Origin: a bacterium
GTDB taxonomy: Bacteria > Planctomycetota > Planctomycetia > Planctomycetales > Planctomycetaceae
Direction of reading: 5' to 3'
NCBI GenBank assembly: GCA_016124895.1
Contig: WGMU01000045.1
Coordinates: 1-64,000, forward strand
Length of the DNA: 64,000 nt
The stretch's first letter is position 1. Each line of letters starts with the position of its first letter. The translations under genes and the position numbers were made by a program. The notes beneath the pieces are model-generated. The model saw only the letters and a list, made by a program, of their open reading frames with translations. It ran no database searches and was not told the origin of the DNA. This document shows, one piece after another, positions 1,341 to 45,580 of this stretch.

Positions 1341-1940
1341 TGCGACGCTGTGACCGATCCACTCGCTGACAGTGTGCTGCTGATTGGCCAGCACGAGCAT
1401 CATCTCGGCTGCTCGCTGTGCTGTCGGCCGCCGTTGCGGTCAGGCGTCATTCCAGCCCGCTCGGCAATCCGTTGGATGCTTCACTGCAGAGCGCGGCGAC
1501 GCAACGTATTGAGTTCACCGGTGTGGCCCTTCTGCGTGACTTCGCAGGTCGTAAACGGAAGGTCGAGACGTACGTCGGCGATCGGCACGTTGCGGGTTGG
1601 GAGCCCGTTCGTACAACGCCCTGAAGAGGGGCAGGTTTGATGTTCCTCAAGTCTGTATTACCGGCTTCTGACAGCAGTTTGAGTCGTGCGTCGTTCAGTG
1701 GCAGAGGCTCGCTGTCCTCCATCCGCCTCATTTTGATCGGACGCCGCTTCATTTGAGAACGCGTCTTTGATCAACATCTGCCGCAGCGAAAGAACCCTCG
1801 CCTGAAAGCTGCCGGTGTCACCTTTCCTGCTGGAGATCGGCTCCGTAACGCTGCTCTCAGGGACGGTTTCCTCCAGAGCGTCTTTGGCGACACACTTCCA
1901 CTCAACGCGACACACCATCGTTTCGGAAAGACCGACCTGA
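1341..1940. other. Intergenic stretch without a supportable gene
   Basis: Several overlapping short reading frames occur on both strands, none with a recognisable motif, ribosome binding site or coherent composition. The first part may be further remains of the decayed ATPase just upstream; the last part presumably contains the promoter of the oxidoreductase at 1941. Confidence 0.4.
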
Positions 1941-3461: not shown

Positions 3462-3474
3462 CGATCACTGACTC

Positions 3475-3512
3475 GCTCGCCACCGTCATTGCAGACGGTG
3501 GTTTAAGCGAGC
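3475..3512. terminator. Stem-loop between convergent genes
   Basis: CCACCGTC (3480-3487) pairs with GACGGTGG (3494-3501) around loop ATTGCA, followed by TTT; flanking GCTCGC/GCGAGC can extend the stem. It lies 14 nt after the oxidoreductase stop and before the convergent esterase end, so it could terminate transcription from the plus strand. Inferred from structure only. Confidence 0.55.
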
Positions 3513-3565
3513 TGACTGTCAATCGTGGCGTGCGTTTGAAGGTAGTAGGCGATGCTCGGCGGAGA

Positions 3566-4315: not shown

Positions 4316-4636
4316 GGTGGCGTTCTCCGGACATTGGAAGGTTGTCGTCAACGATAATCCGCAGGCTGCTTCCCGCCCAGGCATCGGCCGGTCGTGACGG
4401 TTGTACTGACTGACGCAGATTCCGCATGACAGCCGTAGCGGCATTCGCGCGACGGCTTTCGCGGGAAGGGGCCGACCGCCAGGAAACGCAACGCCTCAGC
4501 CACATTCCCAGCCTAAAACAGAGCAGCGTCGACGGACGCTCGATTTTGGCTGATGCCACCTTTTCGCGTCAGATACCCGCCTTCTCACTGCTGAGACGCA
4601 CCTTTCCCCGCTGCTTCTGTCTTGAATGACGTGACC
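4316..4636. other. Divergent intergenic region
   Basis: About 320 nt between the divergently transcribed esterase and the membrane protein. It should hold both promoters, but I see no clear -35/-10 pair, operator repeat or small gene. Confidence 0.4.
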
Positions 4637-6304: not shown

Positions 6305-6446
6305 GTTTCGAGACGGGAAAAGTTGAACCGCTCGAAGCAGGTCCACTCGATTTCCAATCCTGAGGTCAACGTCCAGAATGCCGGACTTTTCGTCTGCGGC
6401 TCAGCTGCTGCTGGCACTTCGGAGACTCTGGAACGGAATCTGACCC

Positions 6447-7268
6447 GTGAAACTGATCGAGTTCTTTCTGCTGCTGACTCTGGTCGCGGGAGCAAACCAC
6501 GTGGCTCAGGCTCAACTGATCGTGGCTCACCGGGGAGCTTCGTACGACGCTCCAGAGAATACGCTGGCCGCGTTCCGGCTGGCGTGGGAACAGAATGCCG
6601 ACGCAATCGAAGGCGACTTCTACCTGACACGCGACCAGCAGATTGTCTGCATCCATGACAGGACGACGAAGCGCGTCGCTCCGCAGCAGCCGGAACGCAA
6701 CGTCGCCGAGTCGACGTTTGAGGAACTGCGGACGCTCGACGTGGGAACCTGGAAGTCTCCGCGGTTCGCGAACGAGCGCATCCCGACGCTGGCCGAAGTC
6801 CTGGCCACGGTTCCACAAGGGCGTCAGATATTCGTCGAAATTAAATGCGGTCCGGAGATCCTGCCGGTTCTCGCACCGCAGTTAGCGGCGCCGACGCTGA
6901 AACCCGAACAGATCACAATCATTTGTTTCAACGAGGACGTCGTCACTCAGGCAAGAACGCTGATGCCGCAGTACCGGGCCAACTGGCTGACGAGTTACCG
7001 GCAGAAGTCAGAAGCAAGCCCGTGGACGCCGTCCATCGACAACGTGCTGAACACACTGAGTCGAACGAGAGCGACTGGTCTGGGCAGTAACGGCAACCTC
7101 AAGGTCATTGACGCCCGGTTTGTTGAGCAGGTCCATCGTGCCGGATTTGGCTTTCACGTCTGGACGATTAACGATCCGGAATCTGTTCGGACGTTGCGAT
7201 CACTGGGGGCCGAGTCGATCACGACTGACCGACCGGCATTGATTCGTGACGCTCTCGCAGAGAATTGA
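6447..7268 (+). CDS. Glycerophosphodiester phosphodiesterase, secreted
   Basis: 273 aa, GTG start, with a signal peptide (LIEFFLLLTLVAGANHVAQAQ). GDPD TIM-barrel signatures are complete: HRG at 28-30, PENT at 36-39, metal ligands in EGDF (55-58), general acid His70 (CIHD), EIK near residue 132, and a C-terminal VWTIND motif. The enzyme hydrolyses glycerophosphodiesters to glycerol-3-phosphate and an alcohol. It stands between a membrane protein and an M20 peptidase on the same strand with gaps of 140-230 nt, so it is probably monocistronic. Specificity (GlpQ versus lipid-specific) cannot be decided. Confidence 0.92.
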   Translation: MKLIEFFLLLTLVAGANHVAQAQLIVAHRGASYDAPENTLAAFRLAWEQNADAIEGDFYLTRDQQIVCIHDRTTKRVAPQQPERNVAESTFEELRTLDVGTWKSPRFANERIPTLAEVLATVPQGRQIFVEIKCGPEILPVLAPQLAAPTLKPEQITIICFNEDVVTQARTLMPQYRANWLTSYRQKSEASPWTPSIDNVLNTLSRTRATGLGSNGNLKVIDARFVEQVHRAGFGFHVWTINDPESVRTLRSLGAESITTDRPALIRDALAEN

Positions 7269-7502
7269 CTGAATCTGCGGACCGTCTACCGCTGAGCGCC
7301 GCTTTTCGGACGGCGTTGTGAAGAGGCCGGTTGCAAAAGGGGCGGGAGACTTTTTTGGCCGAAGCGTCCTCTGTTTGTGAGCCGCGAGGACCGAAAAAGA
7401 CTCCCGGCCTCCTGTGTCTCCGGTTTCCGATTGGTGCGAGTTCTGTGAGAATCGCCGCTCCTGAACCGCTGACCGACCGAGTTCCTCGAAACGGGATTTG
7501 CC

Positions 7503-8630
7503 ATGCAGGCACTTGAGTACGCTAAGAAACTTGTCGCCTTTGAATCGACCAGTTCTCTGTCAAACGTTGCTGTTACCGATTATGTGCAGAGTGAACTGAA
7601 GCGTCTTGGCTTCGTGACGGAACGCATCGAGTACGACGACCGCAACGGGGTTCGTAAGGCGTGCGTCGTCGCGAAGAAAGGCAGCGGATCGGGTGGGATG
7701 GCTTACTTCGGTCACACGGACGTCGTCCCCGCCGATCCGTGGTTCAGTACCGAGCACGGGCCGTTTGAGCCGACCGTTGCCGGCGAGCGACTGTACGGTC
7801 GCGGGTCGTGCGATATGAAAGGCTCGATCGCCTGTATGCTGGCGGCGGCCGAACAGTTCTCAGGGGGCGACCTCAAACATCCGGTTTACGTGACGTGTAC
7901 TGCGGACGAGGAGATCGGTTATCGCGGCGCATCGGAAGTTGCCGAAAGGTCCGAACTGTTCCGCGAAATGGTCGACGGTCGAGCCAACGGCATCATCGGC
8001 GAACCGACTCAACTCGAAGTTGTGTACGCACACAAAGGCGTCGTCGGTCTCGTCGCAACGTCGCGCGGCAAAGCAGCACATTCGAGTACGCGTGAGGGCC
8101 TGAATGCCAACCTCGCGATGATCCCGTACCTCGTCGAGATGAAAGCGATTCACGACGAAGCGGAAGCCGACGCGAGCTGGCAGAACGACGAGTTCAATCC
8201 GCCGACGCTGACCTGGAACATTGGCATCAACGATCTCACGAAGGCGGTCAACATCACGCCGCCGCAGAGCATCTGCACGGTTTACTTCCGTCCGATGCCG
8301 GGGCAGGACGAGCAGTTGCTGATTGACCGCGCACGCCGCGCCGCCGAAGCCAGTGAGCTTGAGTTTGAAGTCCGCGTTCACGGCTCGCCGCTGTATACCG
8401 ATCCGAAATCGGACTTCGTGCAGGAAGTGCTGCAGCTTGCAGGTCAGGCCGCGCCGAAGACGGTGTCGTACGGAACTGACGGCGCGAAACTCGGAGCACT
8501 CGACAAGCTGCTGGTCTGCGGGCCGGGCAGCATTGCTCAGGCCCACACGCATGACGAATGGATTGCTCTGGAACAGCTCGAGCGTGGCACGGAAATGTAC
8601 GCGCGGCTGATTCGTCACTGGTGCTGCTGA
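7503..8630 (+). CDS. M20 family metallopeptidase / deacylase (ArgE/DapE-like)
   Basis: 375 aa without a signal peptide. The di-zinc centre is visible: His71 and Asp73 (GHTDVVP), Asp104 (GRGSCDMKG), and the catalytic Glu pair 136-137 (ADEEIG). Dimerisation-domain and C-terminal His motifs (AHTHDEW) follow. Length and motif order match acetylornithine deacetylase / succinyl-diaminopimelate desuccinylase. Because no arg or dap genes are near and the next gene is a DUF1501 protein 16 nt downstream, it may act on another N-acyl amino acid or peptide. The ATG at 7503 follows a purine-rich stretch. Confidence 0.88.
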   Translation: MQALEYAKKLVAFESTSSLSNVAVTDYVQSELKRLGFVTERIEYDDRNGVRKACVVAKKGSGSGGMAYFGHTDVVPADPWFSTEHGPFEPTVAGERLYGRGSCDMKGSIACMLAAAEQFSGGDLKHPVYVTCTADEEIGYRGASEVAERSELFREMVDGRANGIIGEPTQLEVVYAHKGVVGLVATSRGKAAHSSTREGLNANLAMIPYLVEMKAIHDEAEADASWQNDEFNPPTLTWNIGINDLTKAVNITPPQSICTVYFRPMPGQDEQLLIDRARRAAEASELEFEVRVHGSPLYTDPKSDFVQEVLQLAGQAAPKTVSYGTDGAKLGALDKLLVCGPGSIAQAHTHDEWIALEQLERGTEMYARLIRHWCC

Positions 8631-8646
8631 CCGGGAAGGAATCGCC

Positions 8647-10080
8647 ATGAACGAACTCAATCGACGCGACCTGTTCTTGTGGGTGTCCAACGGGCTCGGT
8701 ACGGCAGCGCTGGCAACATTGTTGACCCGTGACTCGTCAGCAACGGCGGCGAGTGTTCCGAGTCAGGCCGGTGACCCACCGCCGCATCACACGTCGAAAG
8801 CGACTCGGGCGATCCACATCTGTCTGACCGGTGGGCTTAGCCAGGTCGACAGTTTTGACTACCGACCCATCCTCGAAAAGCTACACGGCAAATCGCTGAT
8901 CAGCGACGAAAAGCCGGACGTTTTCTTCGGTCAGGTCGGGTTGCTGCGGCAGAGTGACTGGGCCTTCCACCAGCGCGGCGAATCGGGATTATGGGTGTCG
9001 GAACTATTTCCGCATCTGGCAGAAGTCGCCGACGAGTTGACGGTCATCAGGTCGATGTTCGCGGAAACGTCGAACCATACGCCGGCGACGTTTCAGGAAA
9101 ACACGGGCTTCCGGCTCAACGGCTTTCCAGTCATGGGGTCGTGGCTCTCATACGGGATGGGCTGCGAGACGGATGACCTGCCGGCGTTCGTCGTGATCCC
9201 CGATTCGCGTGGCGTTCCGGCTGGTGGATCGATCAACTGGTCGAACGGCTTTCTGCCGGCTCAGCATCAGGGCGTCGTCATTCGCAGTCAGGGCGAGCCG
9301 ATCGACGATCTGTTTCCCGCGGAACCGCGGCCAGCCGAAAACGAGACAGCCAGTCGCGTGCTGCTCGCGACGCTGAATCGTCGCCATCTGGAAGAACGCG
9401 GTGCGAGCGACGTTCTGGCTGCGCGGATTCGCAGTTACGAACTCGCCGCGAAGATGCAGCTTGCCGTGCCCGAAGTCACGAACCTCGACGGTGAGACGGC
9501 GGCAACGCATGAAGCGTACGGACTCAATGGCGAGCAGACTGCTGACTTCGGCCGCGGCTGCCTGCTTGCGCGACGGTTGCTCGAACGAGGCGTCCGGTTT
9601 GTGCAGCTCTTTGCTGGCGGAGCGTTCGGCAGTCCGCGCATCAACTGGGACGGTCACGAGGACATGGTCCGGAATCATGGTCGAGAAGCGGGCCGCATTG
9701 ACAAACCGATCGCCGGTCTGCTGCGCGATCTGCGCCAGCGCGGAATGCTCGACGACACGCTCGTTCTGTTTACCAGCGAGTTCGGGCGTACGCCGTTCAC
9801 TCAATCGGCGTCAGACAAAGTCGGCACCGGCCGCGACCACAATCAGAACGGCTTTTCGGTCTGGCTGGCCGGCGCCGGCCTCAGGCACGGCCTGGCTTAC
9901 GGATCGACGGACGAAGTCGGCTGGAAGGCTGTCGAAAACCGCGTCCACTGGCACGACTTCCACGCGACCGTACTGCACCTGCTGGGCATCGATCACGAAC
10001 GCCTGACGTTCTATCACAATGGCATCCAGCGCCGACTAACCAACGTGCATGGCGAAGTGCTGCAGCCGATCCTGGTGTAG
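8647..10080 (+). CDS. DUF1501 protein, Tat-exported
   Basis: 477 aa, preceded by a GGAAGGA ribosome-binding site. The N-terminus contains NRRDLFLWVSNGLGTAALATL, a degenerate twin-arginine leader. The DUF1501 fold, distantly related to alkaline phosphatase/sulfatase folds, is indicated by the ICLTGGLSQVDSFDY opening, NWDGHEDMVRN, TLVLFTSEFGRTPF and GRDHNQNGFSVWLAGAG motifs. In planctomycetes DUF1501 genes usually sit next to DUF1549/DUF1553 cytochromes or hydrolases; here the partner is the M20 deacylase 16 nt upstream, probably co-transcribed. Function of the family is unknown; an exported hydrolase is likely. Confidence 0.9.
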   Translation: MNELNRRDLFLWVSNGLGTAALATLLTRDSSATAASVPSQAGDPPPHHTSKATRAIHICLTGGLSQVDSFDYRPILEKLHGKSLISDEKPDVFFGQVGLLRQSDWAFHQRGESGLWVSELFPHLAEVADELTVIRSMFAETSNHTPATFQENTGFRLNGFPVMGSWLSYGMGCETDDLPAFVVIPDSRGVPAGGSINWSNGFLPAQHQGVVIRSQGEPIDDLFPAEPRPAENETASRVLLATLNRRHLEERGASDVLAARIRSYELAAKMQLAVPEVTNLDGETAATHEAYGLNGEQTADFGRGCLLARRLLERGVRFVQLFAGGAFGSPRINWDGHEDMVRNHGREAGRIDKPIAGLLRDLRQRGMLDDTLVLFTSEFGRTPFTQSASDKVGTGRDHNQNGFSVWLAGAGLRHGLAYGSTDEVGWKAVENRVHWHDFHATVLHLLGIDHERLTFYHNGIQRRLTNVHGEVLQPILV

Positions 10081-10114
10081 CTACCGGTTGAATAATCAGT
10101 CCACTGTAGCGGAG

Positions 10115-10173
10115 CGGCGCAAGCCGCCCGGTCGAAACTGAGTCGGCAACGATGGACCGGATGGCTTGCGCCG
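10115..10173. repeat. Palindromic repeat between convergent genes
   Basis: CGGCGCAAGCC (10115-10125) and GGCTTGCGCCG (10163-10173) are perfect inverted copies. The 'TAGCGGAGCGGCGCAAGCCGCCCGG' opening resembles the repeat at 55975-56002 inside a coding gene. It could also terminate transcription from both sides. Confidence 0.65.
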
Positions 10174-10214
10174 TACGGCTGCCTCATCGCCTTGCCGGAT
10201 CGAATGCGGCGATT

Positions 10215-11618
10215 TCAATTCGTCACCGGCGGGCGCCAGCGCGGTGCGGCATTGCCTTTGGGGTCGGTCAAAGCAGGGACGCGGACGACGCGACGTCCGC
10301 GGAACATTCGTTTTTCGTTCAGCGAGCTGTCCGCAGGGATGGTCGTCGTCAGGCAGTGCAGTGCCCCGCCCGAACGGATGATCGTGCTGCAGTCGACTCC
10401 GGCGATTCGCCAGCCGGGCAGAATGCGACGAAAGACGGTGACGGCCCGATGGTACGAGTCGCGGTTCTCCGGAAAGTAAGGAATCAGCAGCACGCCGTTG
10501 GCGTACACGACGTTGCAGTAAGTCGGCCAGGCTTCCGGATCCGTCTGCGTCGGCATTGGTACGCGGACAACGTTCAGATTACGGCCGCTCGACAGACGAA
10601 TCGACTGCAGTCGCTCGGCAGTTTCGTCGAGCAACTGACGATTGAACGGATCATTTGCCTCTTCGTCGTACTGACCAACGAGCACCGTGTCCTTTGTCGG
10701 AAACGTCATCAGCATGTCGACATGGCCAGTCGGCTCGCCAGCAATCGGGTCGACGAAGACAGCTTCGCGAGCGTGCCACAGTTCGAGCAGCTTTGATCGG
10801 ATCTCTTTCAGGGCGAGTCCCTGATCCTGATTTTCGCCGATCATATTTGTCGAACAGACCAGCAGGCCGTCACCGTTGGAAAGCAGATTACCGCCTTCGA
10901 CGCACAGACTGGTTTCGATGACCGGTAGTTCGAAGTGTTTCGCGAGGTGAGCCGGCAGACTGTCATCGAGGACGCGGTCGGTTCCGTACGGCGCGTCGAT
11001 CAGTTGAATCTGTCCGGCAGAGTTCCGAATGGAAAAGGGGCCATAGTCGCGAACCCACGGTGTATCGATCGGACTTTCGAGGAACGTCACGTTGTCGTCG
11101 GCGATGTTCTCATTCTCGAACACCTGCCGTGCGTCGTCGATTCCGTTCTGGTCGGGAGCGATCACGATGACCTGCGTCGTCGCGCAAACCAGGCGGGCAA
11201 TTTCAAGCTGGACCGGGCGAGCGTCTTCGTTGTCCGGAATCCAGGCGAGCAGCAAGGCCTGCTGCGTTGTGTACTCGCCCGCCGGACCACCAGTGTGACG
11301 GACGCCCGGCAAAGCATCGATGCGCCCGGCGGCGCCGCTTGCCACGGCTGGTCGTCGGTCTGGAAGGACGAGCCGGTCCGGAATGCCGGCATCGTCGGGG
11401 TACGGAATTCCGGATGACTTACGTGCGGACCCGGCAGCAGAGGTCGGCGCCGCTGCAGGCCCCTGCTTCGAGAGACTGGTCGTGTCAGACGCTGTCGGCG
11501 CAGTGACCGATGGGATTTCGGGCTGTGGCGGCGCATCGGTTTCCGACTGCGCTGTCAGAGTCAGGCCAGCCAGCAGAAGCAGCAGAGGCAACAGCCGCGA
11601 CGAAAGACGCACGACCAT
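10215..11618 (-). CDS. Agmatine deiminase / peptidylarginine deiminase family protein, secreted
   Basis: 467 aa. A signal peptide (SSRLLPLLLLLAGLTLTAQS) is followed by ~80 low-complexity residues rich in Ala, Pro and Ser, then the guanidine-modifying (pentein) fold. Visible catalytic elements are WVRDYGP (Asp), EGGNLLSNG (Glu), TGHVDML (His-X-Asp) and, near the C-terminus, GGALHCLT with the nucleophilic Cys. AguA enzymes are usually ~360 aa and cytoplasmic; export and the linker suggest a periplasmic agmatine- or peptide-arginine-deiminating enzyme. It is monocistronic and convergent with the DUF1501 gene. Confidence 0.88.
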   Translation of the reverse strand: MVVRLSSRLLPLLLLLAGLTLTAQSETDAPPQPEIPSVTAPTASDTTSLSKQGPAAAPTSAAGSARKSSGIPYPDDAGIPDRLVLPDRRPAVASGAAGRIDALPGVRHTGGPAGEYTTQQALLLAWIPDNEDARPVQLEIARLVCATTQVIVIAPDQNGIDDARQVFENENIADDNVTFLESPIDTPWVRDYGPFSIRNSAGQIQLIDAPYGTDRVLDDSLPAHLAKHFELPVIETSLCVEGGNLLSNGDGLLVCSTNMIGENQDQGLALKEIRSKLLELWHAREAVFVDPIAGEPTGHVDMLMTFPTKDTVLVGQYDEEANDPFNRQLLDETAERLQSIRLSSGRNLNVVRVPMPTQTDPEAWPTYCNVVYANGVLLIPYFPENRDSYHRAVTVFRRILPGWRIAGVDCSTIIRSGGALHCLTTTIPADSSLNEKRMFRGRRVVRVPALTDPKGNAAPRWRPPVTN

Positions 11619-12016
11619 GCGGGATCTCAGCGAGTAGGAGTGGTTGCAACGCGGAACGCCGCAGGCCGAACTCTCCGGGGCGAGAGTTGCGTCGATTGGT
11701 CCCCACGCGGCATTTGCCGGATTCGGACCTCGACCGCCAGTCGCTGGGAGCAGGTGTCGTCTTACGGTGCGTGGAGTCAGAACTCAGAACACCAGGCCGG
11801 GTGGTCGATCGCGAAACCCGGAAACTCAAAACACACAATTCAATATCGCGAACGCAAGCTGCCGGGAAGTATCGAGTTGGCAGATTTCCCGCCGCCAGGA
11901 AGAGTCGTGTCGCGAGAGTCTGTTTCTTCCGGCGGCGACTGGTGCGGCAGTCATGAGTCCGATTTGAGTGGCGTAGTGCAGCCAGCGTTCGCTCGTGTCA
12001 CCAGGCAATTCGCGGA
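11619..12016. other. Intergenic stretch, no gene seen
   Basis: About 400 nt upstream of the deiminase and downstream of nusB, both on the minus strand. Short frames present here have no motif or start context. No convincing hairpin terminator or RNA was recognised. Confidence 0.4.
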
Positions 12017-12496
12017 TCACTCAACAGTGACTTCCCTCCCACATTCCTGTGCATCCGCTGCGGACACGGGAGTATCCGCCGAGGCGTTGTTCGTGTGGCC
12101 GGACTCCGGGATCAGTTTGTCGAGAATCCCGTTGACAAACTCGCCGGACTTGTCGGAGCCGTACGCTTTGGCGATCTCGATGCACTCATCGAGCACGACG
12201 GGCGGCGGAGTGCTCATCATGGTCATCTCGTAGACCCCCATCCGGATGACGTTGCGATCCGTGGCCGCCATACGCGACAGACGCCAGTTCGCGGCGACTG
12301 CCTGGATCTTTGCGTCGATTTCGTCACGCATGGACTGAGTGCCGGCATACAGTTGCCAGGCGAAATCACGTGCCTCGCCGTGGCGCAGCTCTGCTTCGAG
12401 CATCTCTCGCGCGGCGTACACAGAGATATCGGGATTGGCGTCACTCTGAAACAGAAGCTGCAGGGCGACCTGCCGTGATTCTCGTCGTCGTTCCAT
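12017..12496 (-). CDS. nusB: Transcription antitermination factor NusB
   Basis: 159 aa, all-helical NusB fold. The N-terminus has RRRESRQVALQLLFQSD, the arginine-rich RNA-binding opening, and the C-terminal half has DRNVIRMGVYEM and VVLDECIEIAKAYGSDKSGEFVNGILDKL, the classic NusB/RsmB signature. NusB with NusE (S10) binds boxA RNA in rRNA leaders. ribH ends 16 nt upstream on the same strand, the usual ribH-nusB order, so the two are probably one transcript. Confidence 0.97.
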   Translation of the reverse strand: MERRRESRQVALQLLFQSDANPDISVYAAREMLEAELRHGEARDFAWQLYAGTQSMRDEIDAKIQAVAANWRLSRMAATDRNVIRMGVYEMTMMSTPPPVVLDECIEIAKAYGSDKSGEFVNGILDKLIPESGHTNNASADTPVSAADAQECGREVTVE

Positions 12497-12512
12497 GATG
12501 CAATCTGAAAAG

Positions 12513-13001
12513 TCAGCCCTGAATGATGCCTGAGTCGCGGAGCTGCCCGAGAGCGGACAGCGTTTCGATGGCGGCCAGTGTTGCTTCGTCGCCCTTGTTG
12601 CCGACCTTGCCTCCGGAGCGGTCGAGTGCCTGCTCCATCGTTTCGCACGTCAGAATGCCGAACGTCACCGGAATGCCGCTGCTCTGCGACGCCCGCATCA
12701 GCCCGGCCGCGACCTGCTGGTTGATGTATTCGTGATGCGTCGTCTGCCCCTGAATCACCGCCCCCAGACAGATGACAGCGTTGAACTTCCCGGAGTGGGC
12801 CAGCCTGTCGGCAACAAGTGGAATCTCAAACGAACCTGGCACCCGAACGATTGTCACGCGGTCTTCGCAGCCGCCATGACGTCGGATTGTGCTGAGCGCT
12901 CCGTCCAGCAACCGGTTCGTCACCAGATCGTTGAAACGCGAAACAACAATGGCCAGTGACTCATTCGAGAGAGTCAGTTTGCCTTCGATGCGAGTGGTCA
13001 T
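12513..13001 (-). CDS. ribH: 6,7-dimethyl-8-ribityllumazine synthase
   Basis: 162 aa, normal RibH length. Motifs seen are VVSRFND (substrate-binding Phe/Trp loop), [23 protein letters not shown] with the catalytic His, and [19 protein letters not shown] with the phosphate-binding residues. It condenses 5-amino-6-ribitylaminouracil with 3,4-dihydroxy-2-butanone-4-phosphate in riboflavin biosynthesis. It is first of the ribH-nusB pair; no FMN riboswitch was recognised upstream, and a palindromic repeat fills the gap to rho. Confidence 0.97.
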
Positions 13002-13029
13002 GGTGCGGATTCTGTGATGAGAAACAACT

Positions 13030-13130
13030 CGTTCCCACGGTCTGCGTGGAGACTCTTCAACGTGGACGCTCAGCGTCCGAAATCACCGCAGAGCGGCGGT
13101 ATATGCGCTCCCACGGAGACCGTGGGAACG
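13030..13130. repeat. Palindromic dispersed-type repeat between rho and ribH
   Basis: CGTTCCCACGGTCT (13030-13043) is the inverse of AGACCGTGGGAACG (13117-13130), with an internal GGACGCTCAGCGTCC palindrome. 'CGTTCCCACG' palindromes of this kind are common dispersed repeats in bacterial genomes. Here it lies at the 3' end of rho, where it may serve as a terminator. Confidence 0.65.
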
Positions 13131-13166
13131 CGTTCAAAGCCGAACGCGAGACGCATGAGATCCACC

Positions 13167-14576
13167 TTAACTTAAATTCATCGTCATCAGGAATTCTTCG
13201 TTCGTCTTCGTCTTGCGCAGCCGGCTGGTCAGCAGTTCCATCGCTTCTACCGGGTTCATGTCGTTCAGAACGCGACGCAGCATCCAGATACGCTGCAGTT
13301 CGTCCGGATCGAACATCAGCTCCTCACGCCGTGTGCCCGACTTGTTGACGTCGATCGCCGGCCAGATGCGTTTTTCGACCATCCGGCGGTCGAGATACAG
13401 CTCGGTGTTTCCCGTCCCTTTGAACTCTTCAAAGATGACGTCGTCCATTTTTGAGCCGGTATCGACGAGCGCTGTCGCGACGATTGTCAGACTGCCGCCG
13501 TCTTCGATATTGCGGGCTGCTCCAAAGAACCGCTTGGGATGCTGCAGCGCGTTCGCATCGACGCCGCCGCTGAGAATTTTGCCCGAGTGCGGGATCTCGG
13601 TGTTCCAGGCGCGTGCCAGACGCGTGATCGAATCGAGAAAGATCACGACATGGTGACCGTACTCGACCATCCGCTTGGCCTTTTCGATGACCATATCGGA
13701 CACCTGAATGTGCCGGCTGGGCGGTTCATCGAACGTGCTGCTGACGACTTCGCAGTTCGCCGCGCGAACCGACCGTTCCATATCGGTCACTTCTTCCGGC
13801 CGCTCGTCAATCAGCAGGACGATGACGTACGCTTCCGGATGATTGTGCAGTACCGCCTGCGCGAGCTTCTGCAGCAGGATCGTCTTACCGGCCTTCGGCG
13901 GTGACACGATCAGACCGCGCTGACCCATACCGATTGGGGCGAGCATGTCGACGACGCGCGTGCTCAGCTCCTGCGGATCGGTGGCGAGAATCAGTCTCTT
14001 GTTCGGGTGCAGCGGTGTCAGATCGTCGAACGAAACTTTCGCCGTGACCTGGTTGGGGTCCTGACCATTGATCGCTTCCACTCGCAGCAGCGCAAAGTAG
14101 CGTTCGTTTTCCTTTGGTGGACGAATCTGGCCGGCGACGGTCGCTCCCGTCCGCAGGCCGAAGCGGCGAATCTGACTCGGCGAGACGTAAATGTCGTCCG
14201 GGCACGGCAGGTAGTGGTAATCCGGGCTGCGCAGAAATCCGAAGCCGTCCGGCAGAATCTCAAGCGTTCCCTCGCCGAACATCAGCCCGTTCATCCGGGT
14301 ACGTTCCTTGAGGATCTTGAAGATCAGATCCTGCTTCTTCAGCCCGTTGTATTCACTGAGCTGTTCGTCTTCGGCGAGCGTCAGCAGTTCGTGCATCGAC
14401 ATGCGCTGCAGTTCGGCGATGTGAACTTCGCCCTGCTTGATCGCTTCGTAACGCTCGTCGGCCGGAAACGTGACGTCTTCGTCCGGAATATCGGACAGTT
14501 CGGCCGTCGAGCTGTCAGCGTCGGTCGTCACAGAATCTGAACTGGAGCGTGGCCGATTGAGGTCGGTACGTGCCAT
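13167..14576 (-). CDS. rho: Transcription termination factor Rho
   Basis: 469 aa from ATG 14576 (MARTDLNRP). A ~60-residue acidic, Ser-rich N-terminal insert precedes the Rho N-domain ([31 protein letters not shown]). Next come the OSB RNA-binding domain ([44 protein letters not shown]) and the ATPase with Walker A SPPKAGKT, Walker [15 protein letters not shown], and the Q- and R-loops ([30 protein letters not shown]). The longer frame to 14720 is rejected because the extra 48 residues look non-coding and the protein without them matches Rho. coaE lies upstream on the same strand. Confidence 0.97.
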
Positions 14577-14723
14577 GACGGAATACCAGAAATAGAAGAG
14601 AAGAAGGACGGGCTTGAGCGAATGCTCGGACGGGGGTATCGGCAGCGAGTGGAGGGACGTTGATTTGTGAGAGTCGGTCGAGGGCGAGTCAATCAGAAAA
14701 TCGCAGCTTTCGATGGTCACCGA

Positions 14724-15350
14724 TCAGCCGTGGGCCGCCAGCTTTTCGGTCAGGAACTGAGTCAACTGGCAGATTGATTGCTCCAGCGAACCAGAGTTGT
14801 CGACCACGAAGTCAGCGGCCTTTCGTTTCTCATCCAGCGGCAGTTGACTGGCTTCGCGACGCTGAATTTCGTCGTCGGTCCAGTCCCGCTGCTCGTGAAT
14901 TCGGTTCAGTCGGTCTTCAAAGGGGGTCTCAATAAAGACGAGAAAATCACAGAGTCGATCCCAGCCGGCTTCGAGCATGACCGCGGCGTCCAGAACAATC
15001 AGTTCCGTCGATGCCTCTGCGGCTGCAATCTGCGATTGAGCGACTCGCTCAATTTCAGGATGAACAATCTGCTCCAGCGTACAACGCGCCTGCAGGTGGG
15101 ACGGCTCATCGCCGAACACTGCAGAGGCAAGGCACTTTCGATCGACCTGATCGCCGTCGAAAATCGCATCGCCGAACGCCTGCCTGAGCAGTGAGATAAC
15201 TCCGGGAAAGGTAAGAACCTGATGCCCGATCCGGTCAGCATCGATCACGACGGTCTTGAAGTGGCCCGCAAGTCCGCGGGCAATGGCACTCTTGCCGGAA
15301 CCGATTCCGCCGAGAAGGCCCACAACTGGAGGCTGACTGGAAGAGGACAC
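14724..15350 (-). CDS. coaE: Dephospho-CoA kinase
   Basis: 208 aa. P-loop GGIGSGKS at residues 14-21, followed by VIDADRIGHQVL (the Asp acting as catalytic base), HLQARCTLEQIVHPEI, LDAAVMLEAGWDRLCD and IQRREASQLPLDEKRKAADFVVDN, the standard CoaE series. It transfers phosphate to the 3'-OH of dephospho-CoA in the last step of CoA synthesis. It lies 147 nt upstream of rho in the same direction; coaE-rho linkage is common in this phylum. Confidence 0.96.
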   Translation of the reverse strand: MSSSSQPPVVGLLGGIGSGKSAIARGLAGHFKTVVIDADRIGHQVLTFPGVISLLRQAFGDAIFDGDQVDRKCLASAVFGDEPSHLQARCTLEQIVHPEIERVAQSQIAAAEASTELIVLDAAVMLEAGWDRLCDFLVFIETPFEDRLNRIHEQRDWTDDEIQRREASQLPLDEKRKAADFVVDNSGSLEQSICQLTQFLTEKLAAHG

Positions 15351-15716
15351 GGGATGGTGGGGCGAAAGGTGAACTGCCTGAGCCGGCAGGTGATGTCTGA
15401 CGATTCCGTTCGTCCACAGATTTGGATTGAGCGGGGAAGAAGCAGATCCGGGAGATGCCCGTCAGGAGAGTGCGATCATCGTGCTGAAATCTGCAGTAAC
15501 TGTCAACCAACGGACCGACTGGCGCGATGGGCTCGCGTCCGGCGGGTCAGAGCCGGTCGGGAACCGCTGGACAGGAAATCGGGCCTCGGCGATGCTGCGC
15601 CCTGCCTGCGGGCTGCAGAAGCTGGAAACTGAATCGAACACCGCGACGTCCAAGCCGCGTAATCCCGTTCCAGATCTTCCAACGTCATCACTCACGAAGA
15701 ATGCGAGGTTCTGACG
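15351..15716. other. Divergent intergenic region
   Basis: Roughly 365 nt between coaE (minus) and the zinc-ribbon gene (plus). Promoters for both are expected; no motif, repeat or small gene is supportable. Confidence 0.4.
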
Positions 15717-16148
15717 ATGACTGCCTGGCCCGGAGGTCCGTGTCCTGACTGCGGTCGCGACATGCCAGCCAGACTGGTTCACTGCCAGTTCTGCCGCGCG
15801 CTGCTCAATCCCGACCTGTACCGCAGCGATGTCGAGATTCCGAAGTTTTTCGAGCTGAAGGAGATCAGCGACGTGGCTCAAGTGAAGGTTGTCGGCTTCC
15901 ACATCGTCTGCCCGCACTGCGAGGACGAACTCCGCATCAGCCGCAAGTACCTGGGCAAAGTCGTCGCCTGCCGATTCTGCCAGGGCCAGTTCAAGCTCGA
16001 CGTCACCGACCCGCGCATCCGCACGCGAGCCTTCTACTCGGACTGCCCGCACTGCCACAAAGAAATCCGCCTGGCCCCGAAGTACCTGGATAAGAAAGTC
16101 GCCTGCAAGCACTGCGACGGCCACCTGCAGGTCACGACAGCGGACTGA
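15717..16148 (+). CDS. Tandem zinc-ribbon protein
   Basis: 143 aa with three cysteine knuckles: C-P-D-C...H-C-Q-F-C near residues 9-26, CPHC...CRFC in the middle, and CPHC...CKHC at the end. The last two ~40-residue units are clear duplicates (CPHCxxEхRhxxKYLxKxVACxxC pattern), each able to bind one zinc. No DNA-binding or catalytic domain is visible. It resembles planctomycete MJ0042-type or rubredoxin-like ribbon proteins, but no function can be named. It is followed by a GC-rich hairpin. Confidence 0.8.
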   Translation: MTAWPGGPCPDCGRDMPARLVHCQFCRALLNPDLYRSDVEIPKFFELKEISDVAQVKVVGFHIVCPHCEDELRISRKYLGKVVACRFCQGQFKLDVTDPRIRTRAFYSDCPHCHKEIRLAPKYLDKKVACKHCDGHLQVTTAD

Positions 16149-16164
16149 ATGCCGCAATGAAAAG

Positions 16165-16194
16165 GAGCCCGCACTGCAGATGCGGCGCGGGCTC
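16165..16194 (+). terminator. Candidate intrinsic terminator
   Basis: GAGCCCGC (16165-16172) pairs with GCGGGCTC (16187-16194), loop of 14 nt, followed by GTTTG, 17 nt after the zinc-ribbon stop and facing a convergent gene. The U-tract is weak. Confidence 0.55.
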
Positions 16195-16225
16195 GTTTGG
16201 GCGATTCGGCTTCAGAAGCTGGTGA

Positions 16226-16456
16226 CTACGGAGCTTCGTAACAGGAGCGGGTTGCGTTGGTGCATTCCTCGCCGTTGCAGAAGCCGTTGTCGGGGCCGTA
16301 AATGCGCTGCGTATTGGCGCACCAGAAGTTGCCGTCGCCGATGCGGTACCTGGTCGGGTCGGACTCGTCGATCTCCAGGCCGGCGTTCAGATACAGGCCT
16401 TTTGACAGCAGGTGCCGACACCGCTCGCCGCGAACGACTTCGAGTTCGTGCTGCAT
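16226..16456 (-). CDS. Small cysteine-containing hypothetical protein
   Basis: 76 aa (MQHELEVVRGERCRHLL...). It has Cys residues at C13, CAN, FCNGEEC and SCYEAP and a DPTRYRIGDGNFWC core. Composition, a defined start and six cysteines argue for a real gene, and the short length fits a metal-binding or disulfide-rich protein. No family recognised. It is single, flanked downstream by the convergent zinc-ribbon gene and upstream by a repeat. Confidence 0.65.
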   Translation of the reverse strand: MQHELEVVRGERCRHLLSKGLYLNAGLEIDESDPTRYRIGDGNFWCANTQRIYGPDNGFCNGEECTNATRSCYEAP

Positions 16457-16473
16457 GGTTCGATTCCTTATCT

Positions 16474-16574
16474 GTAGGGTGCGTGAAACGCACCATTTCG
16501 ATCAGATGAAAAACGTGGTGGGCCAGGTAAAACTCGGCCCACCCTACGGGGCAGGTGCATCAGGACGCACCCTA
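16474..16574. repeat. GTAGGGTGCGT inverted repeat element
   Basis: GTAGGGTGCGT (16474-16484) and its inverse ACGCACCCTAC (16564-16574) bound a ~100-bp segment that also contains GTGGGCC/GGCCCAC. A third copy of GTAGGGTGCGT is at 26866-26876. This looks like a dispersed short palindromic element. Confidence 0.7.
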
Positions 16575-16579
16575 CGATT

Positions 16580-17566
16580 TCAGATCTTTTCGACGGCTCG
16601 CAGCAGGGCGCGCTTCACCGCGGTGCGGGCCATCTGGACTTTGTACTGGTTCATCGACAACGGCGTCGCACGAGCGACGGCGATGTCGGCGACGGTTGAT
16701 GCGGAGTCGTCAGTGACGGCCAGACCAGCAATGGCCTTGCCGGCTTCGTGAGCGATCCACGGCACCGGAGCGACGTGGCCCATCACGATCTTTGCCTGGC
16801 GAACCGTGCTGCCTTCCATCTGCAGAGCGACAGAAGCAGCCGCCTGCGGACGATCGAGGCCGTTCATTTCGAGCACTTCGTACGAAGCACTCTTCACGTT
16901 CGGAGCCACCGTCGGCAGCCAGACGTGCGTGATGAACTGGCCGGGCTTCAGGACATTGACGCCCTGCTTTTCGTTCCGCGGCGTAACGAAGAAGTACTCC
17001 AGTGGGAGGAATTCTTCGTCCTGCGGACGCGGGCCGGCGACGCGGACCTTTGCCCCGAACGCGATCATTGACGGAGCGAACCGCGACGAGTTCACGAACT
17101 TCGCCGCGCCGCTGTTGCCGAAGATCGCGTGGTACCGGTTGTCGCCGCCTTCGATCAGCGACGCTCCGTTCTGCATGGCCAGCAGGCCATAGCCGTTCCG
17201 GAAGTACCAGCATTGGGGGAGCTGGCACAGGTCGCCGATCAGCGTTCCGTTCTGCTGAATCTGAATCGCCCGGTGCGCGTCAATGATCTGCAGCACCGAG
17301 TGATGTTCGGCCAGCAGTGGGCTGTCCAGCGCGTCTTCCAGCGTGACGAGCGAGCCGACCAGAACTCCGTCGGCCGTCTGGGTGATCCCCTTCAGGCTGT
17401 CGATGTTCTTAATGTCGACAACTCGCTTCGGCTGAATGACGTCGCGTTTCAGCAGCGTTATCAGGTCCGTTCCGCCCGACAGGACAGCGGTCTGTCCGTC
17501 ATGGGCACTCAGCATTTCAACGGCCTCGGCTTCGGTCCGAGGACTCGCATATTCAAACGGTCTCAT
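16580..17566 (-). CDS. Molybdenum hydroxylase, FAD-binding medium subunit
   Basis: 328 aa of the CoxM/XdhB family. FAD-binding VLSGGTDLITLLKRD, GTLIGDLCQLPQCWYFRNG and GAKVRVAGPR segments, and the C-terminal CO-dehydrogenase flavoprotein domain (GLDRPQAAASVALQM) are visible. It passes electrons from the 2Fe-2S subunit to its acceptor. It is the last gene of the three-gene operon, 14 nt after the large subunit. Substrate (xanthine, aldehyde, CO or other) cannot be told from this subunit. The QLPQCWYFRNG stretch matches FAD subunits that bind an additional 4Fe-4S cluster only if more cysteines are present; I see too few to claim it. Confidence 0.93.
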   Translation of the reverse strand: MRPFEYASPRTEAEAVEMLSAHDGQTAVLSGGTDLITLLKRDVIQPKRVVDIKNIDSLKGITQTADGVLVGSLVTLEDALDSPLLAEHHSVLQIIDAHRAIQIQQNGTLIGDLCQLPQCWYFRNGYGLLAMQNGASLIEGGDNRYHAIFGNSGAAKFVNSSRFAPSMIAFGAKVRVAGPRPQDEEFLPLEYFFVTPRNEKQGVNVLKPGQFITHVWLPTVAPNVKSASYEVLEMNGLDRPQAAASVALQMEGSTVRQAKIVMGHVAPVPWIAHEAGKAIAGLAVTDDSASTVADIAVARATPLSMNQYKVQMARTAVKRALLRAVEKI

Positions 17567-38213: not shown

Positions 38214-39854
38214 TCAGGAGCGGGTCGATCCGAGACAGTCAGCGAACTCAGCGTGCTCGATACGCTCAAGTTCGACCGGATAGTTTTCAAACGACATTGT
38301 GTAACACTCTTCAAACAGCGGTCGCATGAAGTCGTCGATCCCTGGGTCACAGGCCGGTTTTATGAGGAATTCGCGGCCCTCTGGTGTTTCTCGAATCTCA
38401 CCATCTTCTATGACGACTTCTCCGCCTTTGAGCACGTAACGCGGGTGTCCAAACATACGTTCGACGTCTTCATCTTCCTCGTAAATCACAACGTCCGCAT
38501 CGCTGCCAATGCCGAGATTGCCTTTCTTCGGCATCCCCAGCGCCCGGGCCGGGCCGGCTGACATCGAGGTCGCGATTTCGTAAAGCGTGTATTCGCGGTC
38601 GATCTCGGCGAGTCTGATTTTGCCTTTGATTTTGTCTGGCAACTGCTTGAGGCACTCCTGACGGAAGTCGGCGCACATCAGCAGTTTGATGATTTCCGGG
38701 TAACGCCAGAAGCAGCCGCCGTTGGGATGATCCGTCGACAGAAAGACCTGCCAGGGATCCTGAATCAACAGCAGCAGTTCCAGTCCCGAAGCCCACTGAA
38801 CCGCGTTGACCAGATTGCTCGGCCGATAGGTGTAGGGGACGATGCCGCAGCTTGTTTCGTTTTCGACGTCGAGGTTGCCCCACTTGCGACCGGTCAGCTT
38901 GTAAAGCAGATGCTGCCACGGTCCGTCGGCCGTAATCGTGACGGTATCGCCGAAAAGAACCGCACCGGCGTCCGTCGTGATCCCCGGATGAGCATTGAAG
39001 TAGTCAGCGAGCTGCGCCGTTTCCGAACACATTGTGTCCCAGTCGTCGCCACCGTAAGCGTGGTACTGACAGTGCGCGATGTGTGCCCGCCGGCCTTCCA
39101 GATGCTTCAGCGTGTCGATGGTCGTCGAGATGTTTCCCGGCGCGCCGAGGTTGTTGCAGTGCAGGTGAATCGGGTGCGGCAGACCGAGATCTTCACAGAT
39201 CTGAGCCAGTTGTGTGACGATGGTTCCCGGTGTCAGTTTGCTGTAGCCCTCAATGGGTGACGTGAGCTGCTTGGCGTCTTTGCCCCATTTCCAGGCAGCG
39301 ACTCCGCCAGGGTTGACCGCCTTGATGCCGTACGACTTGGCCGCCCAGATGTACCAGGCGACGACCTGCTTTGCCCGTTCGTATTCACCGTTTTCCAACT
39401 GATCAAGCATGATCTCGTTGTTGGCCATCAGCGTCAGCGTGGTCTTATCGACGATCGGGATGTCCGCCAGCTCTTCATGTGTGTGCCGCGCGGAAAGCAC
39501 CGGGACGGCCGCTTCATTGACCGTCGTCCAGCCCATTCCGGCATAGAGGTAGCCGGTGGCGAACGTCGTTGGAGCCATCCCGCCCAGGCCGCTGCGGCGC
39601 GTCTTCGTGCGGATGAAGGCCTGAGTGCGACGGTGATCTTCCGGAGTCATCGCGCGGGCAAAGTTGATCGCTCCGCCAGCCACGTGTGTGTGAACGTCGA
39701 CGCCGCCGGGAAAGACGATCATCCCCGTTGCGTCGATCGTCCGTCCGCCCTCAACTGACTCGACGAAGCTGCCACCGTCCATGCAGAGATCCCGCACTTC
39801 GCCGTTGATGCCGTTGGCCGGGTCGTAAACTCTGCCGCCTGTGATGCGAATCAT
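38214..39854 (-). CDS. fwdA: Formylmethanofuran dehydrogenase subunit A homologue (amidohydrolase)
   Basis: 546 aa, normal length for FwdA/FhcA. Amidohydrolase fold with the metal motif VDVHTHVAGG (H-x-H), HLHCNNLGAPGN and HIAHCQYHAYGG, FDxxx/TDHPNGGCFWRYPEI. The N- and C-terminal beta-subdomains carry VYDPANGINGE and VIYEEDEDVERMFGHPRYVLKGGE. In the archaeal enzyme this subunit hydrolyses N-formylmethanofuran to formate at a binuclear Zn site; in bacterial Fhc it works the same way. It lies 9 nt downstream of fwdB in the same operon. Confidence 0.95.
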   Translation of the reverse strand: MIRITGGRVYDPANGINGEVRDLCMDGGSFVESVEGGRTIDATGMIVFPGGVDVHTHVAGGAINFARAMTPEDHRRTQAFIRTKTRRSGLGGMAPTTFATGYLYAGMGWTTVNEAAVPVLSARHTHEELADIPIVDKTTLTLMANNEIMLDQLENGEYERAKQVVAWYIWAAKSYGIKAVNPGGVAAWKWGKDAKQLTSPIEGYSKLTPGTIVTQLAQICEDLGLPHPIHLHCNNLGAPGNISTTIDTLKHLEGRRAHIAHCQYHAYGGDDWDTMCSETAQLADYFNAHPGITTDAGAVLFGDTVTITADGPWQHLLYKLTGRKWGNLDVENETSCGIVPYTYRPSNLVNAVQWASGLELLLLIQDPWQVFLSTDHPNGGCFWRYPEIIKLLMCADFRQECLKQLPDKIKGKIRLAEIDREYTLYEIATSMSAGPARALGMPKKGNLGIGSDADVVIYEEDEDVERMFGHPRYVLKGGEVVIEDGEIRETPEGREFLIKPACDPGIDDFMRPLFEECYTMSFENYPVELERIEHAEFADCLGSTRS

Positions 39855-39863
39855 TGCTGCGAC

Positions 39864-41204
39864 CTAAACCTGTGCCGTGAGCATCTGCGGCTGACTTCCG
39901 TCTGGCAGCCAGAACGGTTTTGCCATGATGGCTTCGTTGATCCGGCGAACGACGTACTCGTCCGTGGGGTAAGGCGACTTGAGCGGTGGCTTCAGGGGCA
40001 ACGGAACTTCGTCCATCCGATAAGCCGTCCCTGGAGCAGCGATGCCCTGCGGTGCCGTCGTGATGTGAACTCGGGCCAGCTTGCTCGTATGCGTCACGTG
40101 CGGGTCGAGCACGATCGTCGGGATCCGTTTCAGGTGGTCGATCGCTGGCTGAGGCATTGTTCCGCCGGGATCCGCTCCGATGATGAACGCCGCGTCGCAG
40201 TCGCCACGAACCAGCACGTCGACCGTCGAGAACTCGCCGGGGTTGTACCGCGGGTAACCTCGATTAAACGTGATGCCGAACGGGTAACCGGTCTGCCAGC
40301 GCATCATAACGTCCGCACCGGTCACGTTTCCGTGACCGCGCATCGGCATGGCAACGAACTTGGTGAAGGCGTTCATTTCCGCGGCCAGCGTCAGCAGAGC
40401 CGCGCTGTTCATGTGCTTGCCGCGCGTCATCGACAGCCCCATTCCGAAGAACATGCAACCGAACTTCGCCGACTTCATGCGCTGAACCAGGTCGTCGAGC
40501 ACTTCGCGCGTGAGTCCGGTATCGGCGATCGCTTCGTCGCTGACGTTCTGGTCCTTGATCAGCGCCCGCAGGATCGTGATCAGTTCAAAGTCTTTGCCCG
40601 GCCGAACCTGCAGGAAGATGTCGGACGCTTTGGCGCTCTTGGTTTCGCGAATATCGACGAGAACCATCGTTCGGTCTTTGCGACCTCGCGGCAGGAACTT
40701 GCTCTTCTGCATGAGCGTATATTTGGTGAAGTGACGAGGGTGGCACTCTGCCGGGTTGCCGCCCCAGTACACAATGAAGTCCGCTCGCTGCTTCACTTCG
40801 CCGAGCGTACACGAGACCTTACCGCCCAACTGGGCGGCGATTTCGGTGGGACCGTGTCACAACGATGTGTGACTGTCGAGCAGTCCTCCCAGTTGATCGG
40901 CCAGAGCGGCGCACTCTTTCTGAGCTTCGCACGTCGTGTTGCTCATGCCATAAACCAGCGGCATGTCGGCTTCGTGCAGCAGCGTCGCGGCCAGTTCGAT
41001 GGCGTCGTCGAGTGACGCTTTTTTACCGTCGATCAGAGCGTCCGGGTATTTGTGTTCAACCGTGTGGTTGAGGAACCAGGCCGTCCCGAGGACGCAGGCC
41101 TTGTTGGCCTTATGGATGCGAGTTTCGTCGTAGTGCAACTGGATGTCGTCGCAGACACAGCCGCAGAAGGTACACGTGGCGTTATCAATGACCTGCAGAG
41201 ACAT
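39864..41204 (-). CDS. fwdB: Formylmethanofuran dehydrogenase subunit B homologue with in-frame UGA (candidate selenoprotein)
   Basis: 446 codons from ATG 41204 (GGAG 5 nt upstream; the frame to 41318 lacks homology). Residues 10-17 hold CTFCGCVCDD and Cys36 (NKACVLG), the 4Fe-4S cluster motif of FwdB. Codon 116 (40859-40857) is TGA. It sits in SHTSL-UGA-HGPTEIAAQLGGKVSCTLGE; archaeal FwdB/FmdB has Cys or selenocysteine exactly before HGP as a W/Mo ligand. After the UGA the same frame runs 330 codons of conserved FwdB (FIVYWGGNPAECHPRHF, GADPGGTMPQPA, PTIVLDPHVTHTSKLARVHI). A hairpin follows the UGA. Read as Sec116, the protein has the normal length; read as a stop, it is a nonsense mutant. 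Both halves keep full conservation, favouring the former. Confidence 0.85.
40822..40859 (-). promoter_or_regulatory. Candidate bacterial SECIS element with UGA codon
   Basis: mRNA sense: UGA (40859-40857), then 19 nt, then stem CCGCCC (40837-40832), loop AGUU, GGGCGG (40827-40822). The loop begins 25 nt after the UGA and has G in its second position, both within what is described for bacterial SECIS hairpins (loop 16-37 nt from UGA, early loop G). An outer CACG/CGUG pair just after the UGA and further 3' could close a longer helix, as in E. coli fdhF, whose UGA is also followed by CACGG. Confidence 0.65.
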
Positions 41205-41378: not shown

Positions 41379-41570
41379 TCAGCCCAGCGCCCGTCCGCGG
41401 AAGCTTCCACGGACACGGCGAGGCATAAAACGCCCGGTATCGACCTCGGTCCAGGCGGCTTCTTCCGCAGCATCCTGCCCGATCGAGAAGTGCGGACTGT
41501 CCGGACCAGTGAACTTTTCGTAATCGTTCTGATTTGATGCGGCCATCAGGCGTGCTTTCTGATCAGGCAT
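41379..41570 (-). CDS. Small conserved-looking protein inside the fwd operon
   Basis: 63 aa. The ATG at 41570 overlaps the last codons of fwdD by 8 nt (ATG 41546 is an alternative), so it is translationally coupled. Sequence: NDYEKFTGPDSPHFSIGQDAAEEAAWTEVDTGRFMPRRVRGSFRGRALG at the end, basic C-terminus rich in Arg. No known domain. Its fixed place between fwdD and fwdB suggests an operon-specific accessory, but I cannot assign a role. Confidence 0.65.
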   Translation of the reverse strand: MPDQKARLMAASNQNDYEKFTGPDSPHFSIGQDAAEEAAWTEVDTGRFMPRRVRGSFRGRALG

Positions 41571-41925
41571 TCTCGGCGGACGGGGCAGTTTCGAGCGGAG
41601 TGACGGTAACTTCCCAGCCTTTCGACTGAGGCATCCCGGTGCCGCCGGTGTCGCCCCCCATCAATTGGCAGGTCGGCGGTCCATACGGGACAAAGATCAT
41701 TCCCACCGGAATCTTACCTGCTTCGCATTTGAAGGCTGATTCTCCGAATTCGGTCCGGATCAGGGCCATCTGCCCCTCGGCGAGACCAATCTCTGCCATA
41801 TCTTCGGCGGCCATCGTCATCGAACTGGTGAGCGCCCGGTACTCGTCGGAATCCTTCCCCACATTGATCAGCGTCCCCTGTTTTGAGGATCGTGAGGAAT
41901 TCAGAATAAACCGTTTCCCGGCCAT
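41563..41925 (-). CDS. fwdD: Formylmethanofuran dehydrogenase subunit D homologue (molybdopterin-dinucleotide binding)
   Basis: 120 aa. Small molybdopterin-dinucleotide-binding domain: FILNSSRSSKQG, YRALTSSMTMAAEDMAEIGLAEGQMALIRTEFG, GMIFVPYGPPTCQLMGGDTGGTGMPQSKG. The last motif (PYGP..N/CxLxxxDTxGTGMP) is characteristic of FwdD/FmdD. It supplies the pterin-binding cap for the active site of subunit B. A separate fwdD together with a metal-ligand position in fwdB suggests that this complex keeps the redox centre that is lost in Methylobacterium-type Fhc. First gene of the operon. Confidence 0.9.
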   Translation of the reverse strand: MAGKRFILNSSRSSKQGTLINVGKDSDEYRALTSSMTMAAEDMAEIGLAEGQMALIRTEFGESAFKCEAGKIPVGMIFVPYGPPTCQLMGGDTGGTGMPQSKGWEVTVTPLETAPSAENA

Positions 41926-44764: not shown

Positions 44765-45580
44765 ATGGCAATGGACGAGACCATTCTGCTGGGAGCCGTC
44801 GCTTACGATCCGAAGGTCGTCGCGATCTGGGAAGGCATTCGGGACTACTTCAATAACTCGGAAGCAGCCTTCGACTTCGTGCTGTTTTCAAACTACGAAC
44901 GGCAGGTCACGGCGCTGCTGGCCGGGCATATCGACATTGCCTGGAACACGCCGTTGGCGCACGTGCGCGTACAGCACCACACGCAGGGGAAATCGCTGTC
45001 GCTGGGAATGCGGGATGCTGACCAGGACTTCCATTCGCGGCTGATCGTGCGCACGGATGCGGGAATTCAAGGGCCGCAGGATCTGGCTGGAAAGACGCTG
45101 GCTGTCGGCAGTCGCGATTCCACTCAGGCCCGCATCCTCCCGCTGCACTTTCTGCAGCAGGAAGGCGTGGATCTGAAGACGGTCAGACTGCTGTCGTTCG
45201 ACACGGATGTCGGCAAGCATGGAGACACCGGCACCAGCGAGCTGGACGTTCTGCAGGCGCTCCGCAATGGCGATGCTCAGGCCGGGACGATCGGTGATCT
45301 GATCTGGGTGCTCGAACAGTCGGCGGGCCACATCGATACGGGATTGATCCAGTCGGTCTGGACGTCTCCGGGCTTCGATCACTGCATGTTCGACGCGCTG
45401 CCGGATCTTGATCCAGGAAAGATCGCGCGGTTCACAACGGCACTGTTCGGCATGACCTGGGAAAACCCGGAACATCGTCGCCTGCTGGAACTCGAAGGCC
45501 TGAAGGAGTGGAAGCCGCCGCGTGAAGCAGGCTACGACAGCCTGCGAGCCGCGCTGGCCGATCAGGGCTATCCGTTATGA
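44765..45580 (+). CDS. PhnD/SsuA-like substrate-binding protein without signal peptide
   Basis: 271 aa. Periplasmic-binding-protein type II fold of the PhnD branch: LGAVAYDPKVVAIWEGIRDYFN, NYERQVTALLAGHIDIAWNTPLAHVRV, GIQGPQDLAGKTLAVGSRDSTQARILPLHFLQQEG, LDVLQALRNGDAQAGTIGDLIWV. No signal peptide is visible and no ABC permease genes are near. Such orphan, cytoplasmic PhnD-like proteins are seen as ligand-binding or catalytic components of biosynthetic clusters. It is followed by an ATGA overlap with the next gene. The ligand is unknown. Confidence 0.85.
   Translation: MAMDETILLGAVAYDPKVVAIWEGIRDYFNNSEAAFDFVLFSNYERQVTALLAGHIDIAWNTPLAHVRVQHHTQGKSLSLGMRDADQDFHSRLIVRTDAGIQGPQDLAGKTLAVGSRDSTQARILPLHFLQQEGVDLKTVRLLSFDTDVGKHGDTGTSELDVLQALRNGDAQAGTIGDLIWVLEQSAGHIDTGLIQSVWTSPGFDHCMFDALPDLDPGKIARFTTALFGMTWENPEHRRLLELEGLKEWKPPREAGYDSLRAALADQGYPL

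Follow-up and report, generated by a model that had tools for sequence, protein, structure and literature searches.

The window, the whole 64,000-nucleotide stretch of planctomycete DNA analysed here, carries genes for a formylmethanofuran (formyl-MFR) dehydrogenase on its minus strand, in the operon order fwdD-fwdB-fwdA-fwdC. The features of the locus are listed below.

41563..41925, minus strand: fwdD, molybdopterin-dinucleotide-binding subunit, 120 aa
39864..41204, minus strand: fwdB, formylmethanofuran dehydrogenase subunit B, 446 aa with predicted Sec at codon 116
40857..40859, minus strand: in-frame TGA (predicted Sec codon) at the W/Mo-ligand position
40821..40838, minus strand: bacterial SECIS-type hairpin with a 7-bp stem and an AGUU loop, the loop 25 nt downstream of the UGA
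38214..39854, minus strand: fwdA, formyl-MFR hydrolase (amidohydrolase) subunit, 546 aa
37381..38202, minus strand: fwdC, structural subunit (GXGXG), 273 aa

The fwdB frame (41204-39864, minus strand) encodes 446 residues followed by a TAG stop, and its sole interruption is the TGA at codon 116, in the context SHTSL-TGA-HGPTEIA (site peptide SHTSL-U-HGPTEIAAQLGG). A table-11 gene caller splits the gene into ORFs 41318-40857 and 40829-39864. In a profile search, the read-through protein matched TIGR03129 with 490.7 bits (cut-off 327.8) over positions 1-420 of 421; this match spans the whole length of FwdB, and the homology therefore continues across the TGA. These results confirmed, in coordinates and frame, the claim of the sequence-only reading that a single TGA at codon 116 interrupts an otherwise complete FwdB. 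Its further claim, that the TGA falls on the W/Mo-ligand residue of archaeal FwdB, was also borne out by the alignment with solved archaeal chains: U116 aligns with the Cys of 5t5i_B (a tungsten FwdB) and of 8rja_B, and with a non-standard residue (X) in 9sfi_Q. C11, C14, C18 and C37 likewise align with archaeal FwdB, the N-terminal CxxCxxxC...C motif being kept. These four are the predicted [4Fe-4S] cysteines, and U116 is the predicted metal ligand. Among the weaker FwdB-profile matches in the window's genome, which are other molybdopterin oxidoreductases, none was interrupted.

In a tree of 77 FwdB proteins, three supported groups stood beside archaeal FwdB. The Sec clade has support of 100/100 and the Cys clade of 98/94; the third, the FhcB-like clade (100/100), has long branches that leave its inner order unsure. 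The ligand position in the FhcB-like clade is Cys, Gly, Ser or another residue, or is deleted. fwdD adjoins 25 of 32 Cys-clade genes and none of the 16 FhcB-like ones. The window's genome has the Sec FwdB together with an isolated FhcB-like paralogue that still carries Cys. Sec-clade and Cys-clade FwdB were never found together (0/24 Sec genomes, Fisher 3e-7), and the two forms occur in different species of one genus (e.g. g160, g151 and g138). A search of 20 further uninterrupted FwdB genes yielded no U-clade FwdB carrying Cys; 18 belonged to the Cys clade, one (L178) was Cys-clade-like with a Gly ligand and one (L179) was FhcB-like. The Gly at the ligand position of L178 (G170:C215; TTTSIGRGSSG) seems to mark an independent second loss of the metal ligand.

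The partner genes fwdD, fwdA and fwdC were all recovered in 46 of the 58 relative loci with room for them. In 26 loci with the UGA form, an ftr gene precedes fwdD, in most cases as its direct neighbour on the same strand. The window's genome has two ftr genes, and the one on contig C186 is of the operon type. A molybdopterin adenylyltransferase gene is located about 2 kb away from this ftr (L183, G000:C186, 8890-9825 and 12084-12620). The fwdD-B-A-C operon, often with ftr before it, indicates an Fwd-type system and not a degenerate Fhc. The traits of FhcB, loss of the ligand and absence of FwdD, are not those of the window, where ligand and FwdD are both present, and the FhcB-like sequences form a separate clade. 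The Fe-S cysteines, the ligand, FwdD and the closeness to archaeal Fwd point to a redox enzyme. Sequence and operon content thus support the earlier suggestion that the complex is probably of the Fwd type rather than a metal-free Fhc.

It is unlikely, though conceivable, that the Sec-containing complex acts as an Fhc-like formyltransferase/hydrolase that releases formate, with FwdB serving mainly as a scaffold. Such a role would suit the Fhc-type C1 pathway for which planctomycetes are known (PMC5020050), and no FwdF-, FwdG- or FwdE-like electron carrier was recognised among the conserved neighbours within about 6 kb of the operon in 53 loci. However, the Sec ligand, the Fe-S cysteines and FwdD are all kept, whereas in the true FhcB-like paralogues of the same families the ligand is lost and no fwdD adjoins the gene. 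The window's FwdB scores 371 bits to archaeal FwdB but only 45.7 bits to the crystallised FhcB (6s6y_B), and the upkeep of a UGA codon for a scaffold would presumably be costly. Less likely still is a real Fwd running in the CO2-reducing direction, from CO2 to formyl-MFR, as in methanogens. Archaeal homologues work in this way (PMC7331816) and the reaction is reversible in principle, but it requires a low-potential electron donor, and no conserved ferredoxin-type subunit adjoins the operon. The oxidative direction also agrees with formaldehyde oxidation, the role given to these genes in bacteria (PMC5020050).

The TGA is a conserved character of the gene. It was present at codon 116, with the frame intact on both sides, in 80/80 of the closest loci in the species-genome collection, which were chosen by similarity to the query and so sample its own clade (nearly all are titled planctomycetes). 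A cultured planctomycete, K23_9 (CP036526; L064), carries the UGA operon too. In a survey of the same family, FwdB was interrupted in 24 of 120 genomes, always by TGA and always once. The alignment of relatives, proposed as a check at the outset, gave UGA or Cys at the ligand codon and no decayed sequence. The persistence of the TGA in relatives with intact flanks rules out a sequencing error or gene decay. It is therefore scarcely credible that translation ends at the TGA, whether through nonsense mutation, sequencing error or a split gene with downstream re-initiation, as the two ORFs of the table-11 gene caller might imply, since the same codon is TGA in 80 independently assembled genomes with intact flanks, the in-frame stops of the family survey are all TGA, and the ligand residue would be gone in every case. 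A Gemmataceae-like UGA fwdB of about 85% identity was also seen on a contig titled Acidobacteria (gp6 AA46; L095), through misbinning or transfer.

The hairpin after the TGA (40838-40821) has a stem of six Watson-Crick pairs plus a closing G-U and a loop, AGUU, with G in second position followed by U, 25 nt from the UGA. The sequence-only reading had described this stem as 6 bp, with loop, spacing and second-position G as given here; it was right, and the closing G-U extends the stem to 7 bp. The published bSECIS model specifies a loop of 3-9 nt, a stem of 4-16 bp, G in the first two loop positions, a location 16-37 nt after the UGA and an MFE of -7.5 or lower (PMC13188914). The fwdB hairpin lies within all of these limits, with an MFE of -13.6 kcal/mol. 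An MFE below -7.5 was obtained for 81/81 UGA-fwdB sequences; the loop is AGTT in 81/81, and all six inner pairs form in 77/81. An Rfam search of the hairpin region matched no family. The stability of the hairpin alone is ordinary (z -1.16), as 24 of 200 dinucleotide shuffles fold equally well.

Because folding energy failed to single out the hairpin, synonymous-site analysis was used in its place. Codons 125 (CAG) and 126 (TTG) showed no synonymous change in 83/83 sequences and were the only such codons among 271 conserved codon columns, and codons 123-127 formed the lowest-diversity five-codon window of fwdB in the same 83 sequences. These sequences are related and not independent, but the ranking of columns holds because the relatedness is common to all columns of the gene. 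In the Cys homologues (n=32), the region of codons 125-126 showed no synonymous constraint. A strict-model bSECIS hairpin followed the codon in 79/83 UGA genes, compared with 3/36 Cys homologues and 5% of other codons. The synonymous invariance and the hairpin counts together indicate that the constraint acts on the RNA, falls on the loop and is linked to the UGA. Judged from these sequence comparisons, UGA-fwdB contains a SECIS-type element that is under selection.

The machinery for selenocysteine is encoded in the window's genome (assembly 99.8% complete, 8.13 Mb). All four components named for checking in the earlier reading are present: selA (500 bits), selB (356 bits, a single 649-aa protein), selD (261 bits, fused to an oxidoreductase domain) and tRNA-Sec (73.8 bits, anticodon TCA), spread over different contigs. 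In the family sample of 120 genomes, tRNA-Sec was detected in 21/24 UGA-FwdB genomes versus 27/96 others (Fisher 1.3e-7); the others comprise 50 Cys-FwdB genomes, 23 with tRNA-Sec, and 46 remaining genomes, 4 with tRNA-Sec. The three UGA-FwdB genomes without detected tRNA-Sec all have selA. selA was present in 26/26 UGA-FwdB genomes checked, a set that includes the window's genome and two from a phylum sample, and UGA-FwdB without selA was never met. It is partly the case that UGA-FwdB merely marks Sec-rich genomes, since 23/50 Cys-FwdB genomes have tRNA-Sec too. The machinery may also serve other selenoproteins, and co-occurrence alone is no proof for fwdB.

In one genome (G178), the distance upstream from the UGA-fwdB gene to selB, selA and tRNA-Sec is about 5-9 kb. 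A DsrE gene and a TusA/MetE-like fusion are situated between selB-selA-tRNA-Sec and the UGA-fwdB operon there (L185, G178:C8:78500-98000, 1546-17501). Further along this locus come a second fwdB (14756-15670), truncated with the ligand half missing, and a second fwdA. In the window itself, positions 44765-45580 on the plus strand encode an Rv1680-family substrate-binding-like protein, which matches the putative selenate ABC transporter binding protein weakly (93.6 bits, cut-off 250).

Sequence alone formally allows other decodings of the UGA (as Trp or Cys, or by near-cognate readthrough), but they are very improbable, given that the archaeal enzymes and the Cys clade have Cys or Sec at this position, that the genome encodes dedicated Sec machinery and that the SECIS hairpin is conserved only with the UGA codon. 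With the Sec machinery present, TGA in 80/80 relatives and a SECIS-type element under selection, the earlier proposal stands, and Sec is very probably what the UGA at codon 116 encodes.

We consider it highly likely that the complex is a Sec-containing true formylmethanofuran dehydrogenase that oxidises formate to CO2 at the Sec site. SelB and tRNA-Sec, with the in-gene SECIS hairpin, would read UGA 116 as selenocysteine, and Sec 116 would supply the protein's bond to the metal of a W- or Mo-bis-pterin cofactor lodged between FwdB and FwdD. FwdB and FwdD together with FwdA and FwdC would then form the dehydrogenase. Ftr would make formyl-methanofuran from formyl-tetrahydromethanopterin, FwdA would hydrolyse it to formate, and the Sec site would oxidise the formate to CO2 and pass the electrons through the [4Fe-4S] cluster of FwdB to some acceptor. 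Computation shows the UGA, the full set of Sec genes, the hairpin under selection, the conserved ligand and Fe-S cysteines, and the operon. We infer that Sec is incorporated, that the complex binds metal and is catalytically active, and that it works oxidatively with such an acceptor, the direction being taken from the part that these genes play when bacteria oxidise formaldehyde. A broader proposal has about an even chance of being correct. It holds that a planctomycete Se- and W/Mo-dependent Fwd, coupled to Ftr/H4MPT, oxidises the formyl group to CO2 with an acceptor unlike the archaeal FwdF/G polyferredoxins, that Sec and Cys operons interchange between close relatives and that the Fhc-like paralogue decays its metal site, one family having all three states.

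Kim et al. 2016 describe an fmdB selenoprotein in planctomycete P2 (Rhodopirellula), in an fmdD-fmdB-fmdA-fmdC operon, and in two unclassified bacteria, one represented by a Lake Washington fosmid (PMC4807772). The P2 gene and the predicted Sec form of the window both come from planctomycetes and lie in the same D-B-A-C operon, and the P2 genome has both Sec and Cys forms of fmdB (PMC4807772). The earlier reading had held that the planctomycete redox complex would be new if confirmed; the 2016 report lessens this novelty (PMC4807772). Kim et al. also listed Gly homologues in G. obscuriglobus, S. paludicola and Z. formosa (PMC4807772). These could be FhcB-like paralogues, because Gemmataceae loci have the UGA form and FhcB-like proteins can carry Gly. 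SECIS conservation, a lineage-wide survey, Sec/Cys exclusion and the Fwd/Fhc clade split do not appear in the section describing this fmdB (PMC4807772). In two reviews FwdB figures as an established selenoprotein family; both give the same older reference sequence and leave planctomycetes unmentioned (PMC9312934, PMC13188914). As far as these tools show, what is new within the open-access literature is that the Sec codon is conserved across the lineage, that the SECIS element is under selection, that Sec and Cys forms exclude each other, and that planctomycete FwdB splits clearly into Fwd and Fhc types.

The archaeal Sec-FwdB (Methanopyrus kandleri; 9sfi_Q) has in common with the planctomycete protein the ligand before HGP, the Fe-S motif and the FwdD/A/C partners. 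The planctomycete system differs in its bacterial in-gene SECIS and bacterial Sec machinery, in having no FwdF/G/E seen adjoining the operon and in a host where no methanogenesis is expected. The Fhc of Methylorubrum (FhcB 6s6y_B) is likewise bacterial and handles formyl-MFR with FhcA and FhcC, but its FhcB is without the metal site and without FwdD (PMC10100899 and general background). The bacterial FdhA/FdhH selenoproteins share the superfamily, a Sec-H-x-P active site and an in-gene SECIS; the window's FwdB is not of their family (TIGR01591, 55.6 bits, cut-off 666).

An earlier review held that fwdD is absent from planctomycetes (PMC5020050), which does not hold for these lineages. The sequence evidence suggests instead that planctomycetes have two methanofuran systems, one of the Fwd type, which has FwdD and either Sec or Cys as ligand, and one of ligand-losing FhcB-like paralogues. 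Because standard gene callers split fwdB in two, a central C1 enzyme can go missing in annotation.
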